A stretch of DNA of 64,000 nucleotides from Acetobacteraceae bacterium AT-5844 (GTDB lineage Bacteria > Pseudomonadota > Alphaproteobacteria > Acetobacterales > Acetobacteraceae). Numbering within the stretch: position 1 is the stretch's first letter; every line of letters starts with the position of its first letter. The stretch spans positions 1 to 64,000 of the forward strand of contig JH599961.1 in assembly GCA_000245075.1 (NCBI GenBank), given 5' to 3'. The position numbers and the translations under genes were made by a program. Shown one piece after another: positions 16,506-20,222 of the stretch. A model generated the notes under the pieces. It was not told where the DNA came from and did not search any database. It worked only from the letters and a program-made list of their open reading frames with translations.

Positions 16506-18089
16506 CTAACGTTTCTCCACATTCCAGAACACCATGATCGGTGCCGCCAGCACTGCGGATACATTGGCCCGCCGCGCGTAGGGCTGGTCGTATTGACCGA
16601 GCACCCGATAGGGCTGCATTTCTGCCAGCCGACGGTGCAGGGCCTCGGTGGCCGCTGCCCTCGCGGTGCTGTCGGGCGCATCGACCACTGCGGCCCGCAA
16701 CCGCTCCGCCTCCGCATCGCAAGGCCAACCGACCCAGCCACGGGCACAGCTCATGTTGGTGCCGATGTTGGTCGCGGGACTCTGCATGGTGGCGCCGGAA
16801 GAGGAGGTGATGAACATGTCCCACCCACCCTTGTCATTGGTCTCGCGGTTCTGCAGCCGCGCCGACACCGCGCCCCAGTCGGTGAACTGAAGGTCCACAT
16901 TGATGCCGCCGCGGGCGAGGGCAGCTGCCGCCACTTCCGCCATGCGGCCCATGTAAGGGATCTCATGGGTCGAGATCAGGACCACTTTCTCGCCGCGATA
17001 CCCTGCTTCTGAAAGCAGCTGTCTCGCAGCCTCGACGTTGGTCCGGGCGAACCGCTCGGCGCCTGCCTCCGTGCCGTTGGGGCTGCCACAAACGAAATAG
17101 GAATTGCATCGCCGCCAGAACCGCTCGTCACCGAAGCCCGCGGCCATGAAGTCACCTTGGTCGGTCAGCAGGGCCACGGCCTGCCGTACCCTCGGGTCGT
17201 TCAGGGGCGGATGCAACTGATTGGGCCGCAGCATCGCCTGGTTCGGCAGACTGCTGTAGCTTTCCACCCGAACGCCGCGCGCGCCTTCGATGGTCGGAAT
17301 CAGATCCTGCGCCGGCTGCTCCCAGATATCGATCTCGCCCGTCTGGAGCGCCGCGGCTGCCGTCGCCGGATCGGGCAGGATATGCCACTCGACCCTGTCA
17401 ACCTTTACCACACGGCCACCTGCCAATCCGTTCGGCGGCTCCTGGCGCGGCACATAGTCGGGGTTGCGATCGTAGACGACGCGCGCACCTGGCTGCCATT
17501 CGCCCCGGTTGAACCGAAAGGGTCCTGAGCCAATGACGGTTGTCACCGGCTTCAGAGGGTCTGTCGCCGCGTCGGCTTCACGCATCACCACGGGGATGTA
17601 GCCCACGGCAGATCCCAGCGCGAAAGGCACCAGCCCCATGGGCCGCTGGAGCCGCAGCACGAAGGTGCGGTCATCGACCACGTCCAATGACGCGACGTAT
17701 TCCTTCAGCTTGCCGCCCAGGGTGTCCCGCGCCATCCAGCGATTCAGCGAGGGAATGACATCGCGCGTGGTGACGGGCTGCCCATCGTGGAAACGAAGTC
17801 CGTCGCGCAGGTGGAAGGTCCAGCTCAGCCCGTCGGCCGACTGGTCGAAGCGGTCCACCATCTGCGGTTGCGGGTTCAGCTGCGAGTCCCAGGCGAACAA
17901 TGTTTCGTAGATCATCAGCCCGTGCATGCGGGTAATGACGATCGAGGCTGCCACCGGATCGAGGTTCCGCAGATCGGCATGCGGCACAACGCGTAATACC
18001 CGTTGCGCCGCCGGCTGTGCAGCCAAGGGCAGCGTGGAGAACGCCGACAGACATAGCGCGATCCCAAAAGCGGCCTTTTTCATTTGCAT
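16506..18089 (-). CDS. ABC transporter substrate-binding protein, peptide/dipeptide type (SBP_bac_5)
   Basis: A 527-residue periplasmic receptor of the DppA/OppA family. A signal peptide (MKKAAFGIALCLSAF... to AQPAAQ) precedes the family signature region LRVVPHADLRNLDPVAAS and the segment DGLSWTFHLRDGLRFHDGQPVTTRDV. These proteins deliver peptides, nickel chelates or glutathione-like ligands to ABC permeases. No permease or ATPase gene is adjacent, so it is an orphan receptor. The ATG at 18089 has a GGGGAGG site; a second ATG two codons later is equivalent. Confidence 0.88.
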   Translation of the reverse strand: MQMKKAAFGIALCLSAFSTLPLAAQPAAQRVLRVVPHADLRNLDPVAASIVITRMHGLMIYETLFAWDSQLNPQPQMVDRFDQSADGLSWTFHLRDGLRFHDGQPVTTRDVIPSLNRWMARDTLGGKLKEYVASLDVVDDRTFVLRLQRPMGLVPFALGSAVGYIPVVMREADAATDPLKPVTTVIGSGPFRFNRGEWQPGARVVYDRNPDYVPRQEPPNGLAGGRVVKVDRVEWHILPDPATAAAALQTGEIDIWEQPAQDLIPTIEGARGVRVESYSSLPNQAMLRPNQLHPPLNDPRVRQAVALLTDQGDFMAAGFGDERFWRRCNSYFVCGSPNGTEAGAERFARTNVEAARQLLSEAGYRGEKVVLISTHEIPYMGRMAEVAAAALARGGINVDLQFTDWGAVSARLQNRETNDKGGWDMFITSSSGATMQSPATNIGTNMSCARGWVGWPCDAEAERLRAAVVDAPDSTARAAATEALHRRLAEMQPYRVLGQYDQPYARRANVSAVLAAPIMVFWNVEKR

Positions 18090-18245
18090 CGGCTTCGTGC
18101 CTCCCCGGTATTACTCGAATACCAGCACTCATACGATGGATGACACAAGCCATATTGGGCAAACTGTCCCGAGTCCGGCGGGGATTCCAAATCTTGAAGC
18201 TGTCCGAGGCCGCTCTTCATCGGGCGAGGGGCCAGGAATGCTGCC

Positions 18246-18887
18246 TCACTCCCAGCGCTGCTGGTAGGAGAATGTCGGCAACTTCCATCCTCCCCAGATG
18301 GCCGAGATACGGAGTGTCAGGCCGCCGATAAAGCTGATGGCGAGGTTCAGGTCGGTGGAGACACCAAATTCGCGCAGGCAGAGAAAGAGCACACAGACGG
18401 CAAGCGAGACGCTTGCGTAGAGTTCTCGCCGGAACACCACCGGCACCTGGTTGCACAACACGTCGCGCAGGATGCCGCCGAAGATGCCCGTCATCATGCC
18501 CGACATGATGACAACGATGACCGGATATCCCATCGTCAGCGCAATGCTGCAGCCGATGAGCGAGAATGCGACCAGGCCCATTGCATCGAGTACAAGGAAG
18601 ACGCGCTTCAGGCTGTGCATGAAGGAAGCGACGACAGTGGTCAGCAGCCCAGCCGAGATCACCAGGTAGACGTATTCCGGATGCTGGGTCCAGCCGATGG
18701 GGAAGTGGCCGAGGATCAGGTCCCGGATGGTGCCGCCGCCTAGCGCGGTGACAAAAGCAATGGTGGCGACACCAAAAATGTCCATGTTGCGACGGCCGGC
18801 CGCCAGTGCGCCCGACATCGCCTCGGCAGTGATCGCGACTAAATAAATGACGAACAGAACGGATTCCGAAGATACGCCTGAATCCAC
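18246..18887 (-). CDS. TRIC/UPF0126-family membrane protein (YicG-like, possible glycine transporter)
   Basis: About 213 residues and seven predicted membrane segments. Two copies of the family motif are present, GGGTIRDLILG and GGILRDVLC, one in each half. Bacterial members of this trimeric cation-channel family (YicG/YadS-like) have been linked to glycine transport, largely because glycine riboswitches precede them. Here a tandem glycine riboswitch lies directly upstream. GTG 18887 is chosen as start because GGGAG (18896-18900) is eight bases before it and the first membrane segment follows at once; the longer open frame upstream runs into the riboswitch itself. Confidence 0.85.
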   Translation of the reverse strand: MDSGVSSESVLFVIYLVAITAEAMSGALAAGRRNMDIFGVATIAFVTALGGGTIRDLILGHFPIGWTQHPEYVYLVISAGLLTTVVASFMHSLKRVFLVLDAMGLVAFSLIGCSIALTMGYPVIVVIMSGMMTGIFGGILRDVLCNQVPVVFRRELYASVSLAVCVLFLCLREFGVSTDLNLAISFIGGLTLRISAIWGGWKLPTFSYQQRWE

Positions 18888-18895
18888 TGGAGAAG

Positions 18896-18929
18896 CTCCC
18901 AAAAATCCAGCGCACGCGTCTCCGCATGC
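18896..18929 (-). terminator. Expression-platform hairpin with T-run after the glycine riboswitch
   Basis: On the minus strand GCATGCG pairs with CGCGTGC across a GAGA loop (18912-18929, one G-U pair), followed six bases later by five T (18901-18905) and then the ribosome binding site GGGAG. This looks like an intrinsic terminator that the riboswitch could form or disrupt. An outer pairing, GCGCAC with GTGCGC, offers an alternative fold. Confidence 0.55.
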
Positions 18930-18945
18930 CCTGGTGCGCCTCTCC

Positions 18946-19129
18946 CTCTGTCCTTTTGCCTGAGAGTTTCTGCTCCGGTCGGAGCTAGCCCCTTCGGCGG
19001 ACCAGGCGCGCGCAGGACGGCGCCCCAGCCTCTCTCCAGACGGCACACACTGCCTTTGCGGTTCTGAATGCCTGAGCGATTATGGGAGTTTGCGCCTTCG
19101 GCGGAGGCAACCAGCCTCTCTCTCCCGCA
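18946..19129 (-). promoter_or_regulatory. Tandem glycine riboswitch (gcvT motif, two aptamers)
   Basis: Read on the minus strand, aptamer 1 (about 19129 to 19053) runs GGGAGAGAGAGGCTGG, then GCCGAAGGCGCAAACTCCC, then GCTCAGGCA. Aptamer 2 (about 19039 to 18946) runs GGAGAGAGGCTGG, then GCCGAAGGGGCTAGCTCC, then CTCTCAGGCAAAAGGACAGA. GGAGAGAGG, GCCGAAGG and CTCAGG are the conserved blocks of the glycine aptamer. The two aptamers are joined by a short linker, as in classic cooperative or single-site tandem forms. It lies about 60 bases upstream of the TRIC-family gene and should control it by sensing glycine. The divergent ChrB-like gene begins about 255 bases beyond its 5-prime end. Confidence 0.93.
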
Positions 19130-19385
19130 AAGGAGATTGCGCTTATCGGCTGCGCTCCACGTCTCTGTCAATCGACGGGCCGCTCAAGGCGGACCTTGGC
19201 AGATCGGGGGGAGGACTGACAGCGGCCAGGACACGGGCCGTACCGTCCAGTTGTCGCTCCAGATGTTCTTGACAGACCATGAGGACCCTCAGCATCCTCT
19301 GAAACAAGGGGACATCCGCGATCGCCCCGTGAGGCTTCGGCTGAAGCATCGCGTCCGACACTCCACAATGATGGAGGGGACGCTC

Positions 19386-20222
19386 ATGCCTGCACCTGAC
19401 ACCATCACCACAGCACAGCTTGCCCGGCTCGTCGGCCTGCCCGATGCACCGGTTCTGCTCGATGTCCGGATCGAGGAGGACTACGCGGCGGACCCACGGC
19501 TGTTCCCGGCCTCCCTCCGACGCGAAGCCCGCGACGTGACGGCCTGGATGGCCGACTATGCCGGTCAGCATGTGGTCGTCGCCTGCCAGCGTGGCCTCAA
19601 GCTCAGCCAGGGCGTTGCTGCCTGGCTGCGCCATGGCGGCGCCCGGGCCGAGGTGCTCGAAGGCGGCTTCGAGGCCTGGGCCGCCGAAGGGCAACTGCTG
19701 GTGCGCCCGGATCGCCTTCCGACGCGGGACGCGGAGGGGCGGACCGTTTGGGTTACACGCTCCCGGCCCAAGGTCGACCGGATTGCCTGTCCCTGGCTGA
19801 TCCGGCGCTTTGTGGATCCGTTGGCCGTCTTCCTGTTTGTGGCGCCGTCAGAGGTAGGCGCCGTGGCCGAACGCTTCGGCGCCGTGCCTTTCGATGTCGA
19901 GGGCGTCTTCTGGAGTCATCGCGGCGAGGACTGCACCTTTGACGTCATGGTCCAGGAATTCGGGCTGAGGTCGGAGCCGCTGCTTCGGCTCGCGGAGATC
20001 GTCCGCGGTGCCGACACGGCCCGGCCAGACCTCGCGCCGCAGGCGGCAGGGCTGCTGGCGGCCTCGCTGGGCCTGTCCCGGATGCATCGCGACGATCTGG
20101 CCCAACTCGCGGCGGGCATGGACCTCTACGATGCCTTCTACCGCTGGAGCCGCGACGCCGTCGCGGAAACCCACAACTGGCCTGTGGGGACGGCGGGCGG
20201 CGCCGGGAGGGACGTGCGATGA
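19386..20222 (+). CDS. Rhodanese-ChrB fusion, chromate resistance protein
   Basis: About 278 residues. The N-terminal half is a rhodanese domain (PVLLDVRIEEDYAADPR, with the active-site loop VVACQRGLKLSQG carrying the cysteine). The C-terminal half is a ChrB-type domain (RPKVDRIACPWLIRRFVDPLAVFLFV, CTFDVMVQEFGL, DLYDAFYRWSRD). Such fusions accompany chromate transporters; the exact role, regulator or enzyme, is unsettled. ATG 19386 is chosen because GGAGGGGA lies five bases upstream; nearer upstream ATGs at 19368 and 19371 overlap that site. It overlaps chrA by four bases (ATGA), so the two are one operon. Confidence 0.85.
   Translation: MPAPDTITTAQLARLVGLPDAPVLLDVRIEEDYAADPRLFPASLRREARDVTAWMADYAGQHVVVACQRGLKLSQGVAAWLRHGGARAEVLEGGFEAWAAEGQLLVRPDRLPTRDAEGRTVWVTRSRPKVDRIACPWLIRRFVDPLAVFLFVAPSEVGAVAERFGAVPFDVEGVFWSHRGEDCTFDVMVQEFGLRSEPLLRLAEIVRGADTARPDLAPQAAGLLAASLGLSRMHRDDLAQLAAGMDLYDAFYRWSRDAVAETHNWPVGTAGGAGRDVR

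Follow-up and report, generated by a model that had tools for sequence, protein, structure and literature searches.

The window analysed here, a stretch of 64,000 nucleotides from Acetobacteraceae bacterium AT-5844 (contig JH599961.1), contains a tandem glycine riboswitch on the minus strand that belongs to the gene of a TRIC (UPF0126) membrane protein. The same pairing of leader and gene occurs in many bacteria, and in the samples checked it is confined to one clade of TRIC proteins, those with a glutamate at a pore position. We consider it probable that the riboswitch is a translational ON switch, and that the protein most likely admits glycine to the cell for glycine cleavage.

The tandem aptamers and their association with the TRIC gene

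The features of the locus are as follows.

18246–18887, minus strand: TRIC/PF03458 ("Gly_transporter") gene, 213 aa, Glu-type (YicG type), with a GTG start at 18887–18885
18889–18896, minus strand: GCUUCUCC, the partner of GGAGAGGC, between the Shine–Dalgarno (SD) sequence and the start (predicted duplex of −13.8 kcal/mol)
18896–18900, minus strand: SD sequence GGGAG
18901–18906, minus strand: ATTTTT 3' of the hairpin, a possible terminator tail
18907–18934, minus strand: platform hairpin CCAGgGCATGCG-GAGA-CGCGTGCgCTGG, found by folding and by a terminator scan, its stem kept in eight alphaproteobacterial leaders
18938–18946, minus strand: switch segment GGGAGAGGC, complementary to the ribosome binding site (RBS) and also to CUCCC of aptamer 1
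18944–19048, minus strand: glycine aptamer 2 (RF00504), with P2 and P3 drifted relative to its relatives
19042–19048, minus strand: GUGUGCC, 5' strand of the distal P1 extension of aptamer 2, pairing with GGCGCAC at 18940–18934
19049–19137, minus strand: glycine aptamer 1 (RF00504), strongly conserved across 48 homologous leaders
19084–19088, minus strand: P3-loop CUCCC of aptamer 1, which would supply one strand of the P5 pseudoknot
19142–19171, minus strand: likely promoter, TTGACA (19171–19166), an 18-nt spacer and GATAAG (19147–19142)

Both aptamers match the Rfam model RF00504 above its gathering score (the curated cut-off) of 32 bits. Aptamer 1 (19137–19049, minus strand) scores 62.1 bits with E = 8.8e-13, and aptamer 2 (19048–18944, minus strand) scores 36.2 bits with E = 5.9e-6; a scan of the whole window listed aptamer 1 alone, the weaker aptamer 2 being absent from the listing. 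The original prediction had proposed a tandem glycine riboswitch on this strand, with two RF00504 matches expected, and both were obtained. The span of 18896–19129 that it gave has to be corrected, as the aptamers run from 18944 to 19137, while the tandem arrangement itself stands. From their sequences, the window aptamers would be expected to bind glycine. The two share one platform 3' of aptamer 2, consisting of the hairpin and then the RBS of the TRIC gene, both of which had been anticipated in this order. The platform alone stands out from shuffled sequences (z = −3.9). The fold of the whole leader does not (z = −1.2), and for this reason we do not use it as evidence. The putative promoter has an equally placed TTGACA in six alphaproteobacterial relatives (L010, L012, L013, L014, L021 and L081), five of which also have a GATAA/GATAC-like −10 element; a promoter consensus scan of the region did not pick TTGACA-18-GATAAG.

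The 80 nearest homologues of the gene in 84,980 genomes supplied the loci for comparison. A motif search found both aptamer cores, properly spaced and directly upstream of the gene, in 48 of the 80, a count that does not represent a population rate because the set was picked by similarity. When RF00504 was run on 17 of these loci, it matched 11 of 11 motif positives and none of six negatives, one negative leader being masked. The riboswitch hosts are mostly Comamonadaceae and Rhodocyclales (Betaproteobacteria), together with Roseomonas-type bacteria, Azospirillum and other Alphaproteobacteria. None of the neighbouring window genes that were compared adjoins the TRIC gene in the riboswitch-bearing relatives, and therefore the leader and the gene move together. 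Two further scans applied stricter filters that may miss weak aptamers: no other genome in an 80-genome sample of the window's own family had the riboswitch–TRIC pairing, and three other genomes in a 100-genome sample of the phylum did, one of them probably Comamonas testosteroni. A search of the openly accessible literature found no paper with "glycine riboswitch" together with UPF0126 or "trimeric intracellular cation channel", although an earlier mention of the pairing is possible.

Several observations concern the surroundings and history of the locus. Two Geminicoccus loci (L015 and L017) contain, ~250 bases before the gene, an eroded riboswitch whose aptamer cores are gone; the start-adjacent RBS stem GGGAGAGG...CCTCTCCC is kept in L015 and has changed end bases in L017. 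The G+C content of positions 18000–18999 is ~0.60 compared to 0.65–0.70 in most of the surroundings, and this, together with the patchy spread of the pairing in Alphaproteobacteria, would fit acquisition by transfer. On the opposite strand, a chrB-a RNA (RF03078, 62.9 bits) at 19303–19388 runs up to an ATG in the chrB reading frame, so that chrB probably starts at 19386 rather than at the upstream ATG at 19068; chrA lies 3' of chrB, at 20219. The TRIC gene and chrB, both RNA-controlled, are divergent. A glycine switch shared with the chromate genes was considered and ruled out, since chrB comes with a separate RNA on the opposite strand and the nearest relatives have no chrBA nearby.

The switch segment and the mode of control

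The segment GGGAGAGGC has two mutually exclusive partners, because it is complementary to the RBS and also to the aptamer side, that is, to CUCCC and, by its 3' part, to the linker before aptamer 2 that forms the P1 extension. Its complementarity to the bases between the SD sequence and the start was found in all 25 alpha- and betaproteobacterial leaders tested (mean 10 kcal/mol), and in 24 of these at most 5 of 200 shuffles gave an equally good stem. For the window, the GCUUCUCC/GGAGAGGC duplex was equalled by 1 of 200 shuffled RBS sequences. The RBS-hiding stem also emerges from the unconstrained consensus of eight alphaproteobacterial leaders. On the aptamer side, none of the 49 TRIC leaders lacks GGGAG 3' of aptamer 2 or the P3-loop CUCCC of aptamer 1; being invariant, these P5 partners show no covariation. 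The GUGUGCC/GGCGCAC pairing (7 bp in the window) shows compensatory changes in two relatives (L014 and L021), and the distal P1 extension is weak in two others (L013 and L018, 4 bp ungapped).

These pairings suggest the following mechanism. When glycine is absent, GGGAGAGGC would pair between the SD sequence and the GTG start and hide the RBS, and the intervening hairpin, which in this genome is followed by a U-run, may stop some transcripts. When glycine is bound, the folded aptamers would withdraw GGGAGAGGC, its GGGAG pairing with CUCCC of the aptamer 1 P3 loop (P5) and its GGC(GCAC) lengthening P1 of aptamer 2. The RBS would be released and the TRIC gene translated, and the protein would most likely admit glycine to the cell for the glycine cleavage system.

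The direction of the switch is judged mainly from known ON types, because the RBS is predicted to open only modestly further. Freeing GGGAGAGGC raised the mean predicted openness of the RBS from 0.35 to 0.48, with a gain above 0.1 in 14 of 25 leaders; in the window it rose from 0.41 to 0.46. Openness was predicted over the whole RBS, which replaced the SD sequence alone, as the latter gave no consistent switching direction across leaders. Mean identity over the 49 TRIC leaders is 71% for aptamer 1 and 62% for aptamer 2, and the bit scores in the window (62.1 and 36.2) point the same way. Better conservation of aptamer 1 has been tied to glycine-cleavage genes (Crum 2019, PMC6944388), and its combination with P5 has been linked to ON switches (Torgerson, cited by PMC13104608). 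The ON-type gcvT leaders of Bacillus subtilis and Neisseria gonorrhoeae (RF00504) resemble the window leader in having tandem aptamers with the first better conserved and C-tract/G-tract partners of the P5 type, counterparts of which also occur in the gcvT leader of the window's own genome. An alternative pairing that hides the RBS is likewise shared with Neisseria (PMC13104608). Unlike the gcvT leaders, which control glycine cleavage, the window leader controls a TRIC/PF03458 membrane protein; its P5 is formed by CUCCC/GGGAG, and the partner of its RBS is the P5 G-segment itself.

A switch of the opposite sense, in which glycine lowers expression, would resemble the riboswitches of Na+/alanine symporters, where glycine aptamers also precede a transport gene. 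OFF control is classically associated with transporters (PMC6944388, PMC13104608), and once GGGAGAGGC is withdrawn the freed SD sequence can, in some leaders, pair locally with CUCC, which would favour this opposite logic. That local hairpin has 4 bp, however, against 7–9 bp for the RBS stem in most leaders, and the OFF types conserve aptamer 2 and have no P5, the reverse of the window leader with its conserved aptamer 1 and invariant P5 partners. We therefore regard an OFF switch as distinctly unlikely. It was separately considered whether the phylum-sample cases in which aptamer 2 scores better are OFF types; this is unsupported, as the same CUCCC/GGGAG partners are present there.

The platform hairpin raises the question of whether an ON switch would operate mainly on transcription, with the hairpin and ATTTTT acting as an intrinsic terminator that forms when glycine is absent. 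A terminator scan picks the hairpin and ATTTTT (18934–18901), with 2 terminators found against 0.3 expected in a 601-base region. The hairpin, described in the original prediction as a terminator-like GCATGCG/CGCGTGC stem with a T-run, does occur with its ATTTTT, but the pairing is longer than 7 bp (CCAGgGCATGCG/CGCGTGCgCTGG, 11 pairs). A hairpin with a T-run is also found in several Comamonas, Acidovorax and Dechloromonas leaders among the Betaproteobacteria. In the seven closest riboswitch-bearing relatives, on the other hand, the hairpin is kept and the U-run is gone (CTCTATCC, CCCGATCC and similar), so that the terminator-like character applies to the window and is not conserved in its nearest relatives. 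The hairpin overlaps neither P1 nor P5, and no conserved antiterminator was found. A mainly transcriptional switch thus seems unlikely to us. Translational control is probably the better model, because the nearest relatives retain the RBS-hiding stem but not the U-run of the hairpin; termination would be at most an addition to the switching, given that the seven nearest riboswitch-bearing relatives have no U-run.

Glu-type and Phe-type TRIC proteins

The window protein matches PF03458 with 146.6 bits over two repeats (cut-off 23.5), as expected for the TRIC/UPF0126 gene that had been predicted downstream. A fold model of moderate confidence (pLDDT 70.5, pTM 0.71) has seven helices and a TM score of 0.82–0.83 to 5wuc, 5h36 and 5wuf. 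The predicted fold with seven helices is that of SaTRIC, CpTRIC, RsTRIC, SsTRIC and E. coli YadS, and, as in prokaryotic TRIC channels, both repeats contain GGG kinks and the RD motif. SaTRIC F20 is one of two phenylalanines that cover the pore (PMC5477506). The second is retained in the window protein as F108 (SaTRIC F106). At the first, the TM1 position at which F-type proteins have Phe, the window protein has E22, which aligns with the Phe of all five solved prokaryotic TRIC sequences. It differs from those channels also in belonging to a separate clade and in its riboswitch.

In two genome samples (179 genomes) the pore residue was F in 64, E in 15 and another residue in 5 of 84 TRICs. The E-type proteins form one clade even when the pore column is removed (SH-aLRT 99), with Glu at the pore position in 97 of 97 members. 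The riboswitch adjoins 3 of 14 E-type compared with none of 69 other sampled TRICs, the window gene being excluded (p = 0.004 by Fisher's exact test, on low numbers and with related genomes that do not count as independent). Some members of the Glu-type clade have no riboswitch, and the tree of E-type proteins implies 14 changes of riboswitch presence, in which gains and losses are inseparable. The genome of the window itself encodes a second TRIC (L009 5200–5823, minus strand, contig C26), which is F-type and has no riboswitch nearby. E. coli has both kinds, YadS with Phe and YicG with Glu (L124 1502–2125, minus strand; L125 1875–2492, plus strand). YicG shares PF03458, the Glu-type residue and the clade with the window protein; unlike for the window gene, no such leader was found in a glycine riboswitch scan of E. 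coli, run as a control.

In the samples checked, the riboswitch is thus confined to the Glu-type (YicG) clade. The idea that it is a general property of TRICs was ruled out, as sampled F-type TRICs never carry it. A link of this channel family to glycine, as originally claimed, accordingly holds for the Glu-type clade and not for TRICs at large, the F-type proteins, including all solved prokaryotic ones, never having been seen with the switch.

Possible roles of the protein in glycine use

Pfam names PF03458 "Glycine transporter", and a review lists UPF0126 genes as required for glycine use in 11 bacteria. The glycine role of the family is supported by these data, and for the same reason, that is, the Pfam name and the reported mutant fitness, it is not a new inference from the switch, as the original prediction had presented it. 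The mutant fitness data go back to Price et al. 2018.

The genome of the window contains a second tandem glycine riboswitch, on another contig, before a gcvT-gcvH-gcvP operon (L008 4568–4767; C50:52567–52766). A lipoate ligase ~7 kb from the TRIC gene, which had been pointed out in connection with glycine cleavage, is uninformative, since the glycine-cleavage genes lie on that other contig behind their own riboswitch. Glycine uptake for catabolism appears to be the simplest reading, because the TRIC gene would be under an ON switch and the glycine-cleavage operon of the same genome is under another tandem glycine riboswitch. In the genome that is probably Comamonas testosteroni (L122), a further tandem glycine riboswitch (C1 977356–977576) precedes a gene for a D-amino-acid dehydrogenase-like FAD oxidase, which suggests that this gene, gcvT and the TRIC gene form a regulon for the use of glycine.

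Substrate-driven ON control would also suit an exporter of glycine, or a protein that relieves glycine excess, and prokaryotic TRICs were at one time proposed to act in metabolite efflux (cited in PMC5401562). The reported mutant phenotype concerns glycine use, however, which an exporter does not explain, and we consider export improbable. Still less likely, in our opinion, is a K+ channel whose control by glycine reflects membrane potential or osmotic balance while other proteins transport glycine. TRICs purified from bacteria and archaea do conduct K+, and an indirect role has been argued (PMC5401562); together with the modelled TRIC fold of the window protein, this speaks for a channel. Within the literature cited (including PMC5401562 and PMC5477506), the members shown to conduct K+ are F-type only, whereas the clade to which the riboswitch is confined has Glu instead of the pore Phe throughout, and a glycine phenotype is reported.

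We speculate further that one pore residue divides TRICs into two classes. YadS and every solved prokaryotic structure would be Phe-type K+ channels, and YicG and the window protein would be Glu-type glycine facilitators, with only the Glu class under glycine riboswitches and its Glu binding glycine by the amino group inside the pore. We offer this as a tentative proposal that may well turn out otherwise. The role of bacterial TRICs is unsettled, as structures and bilayers indicate a K+ channel and mutant fitness indicates glycine use. The split into Glu and Phe branches, if true, would explain this disagreement, and E. coli, with one protein of each kind in YadS and YicG, would be a convenient test bed.
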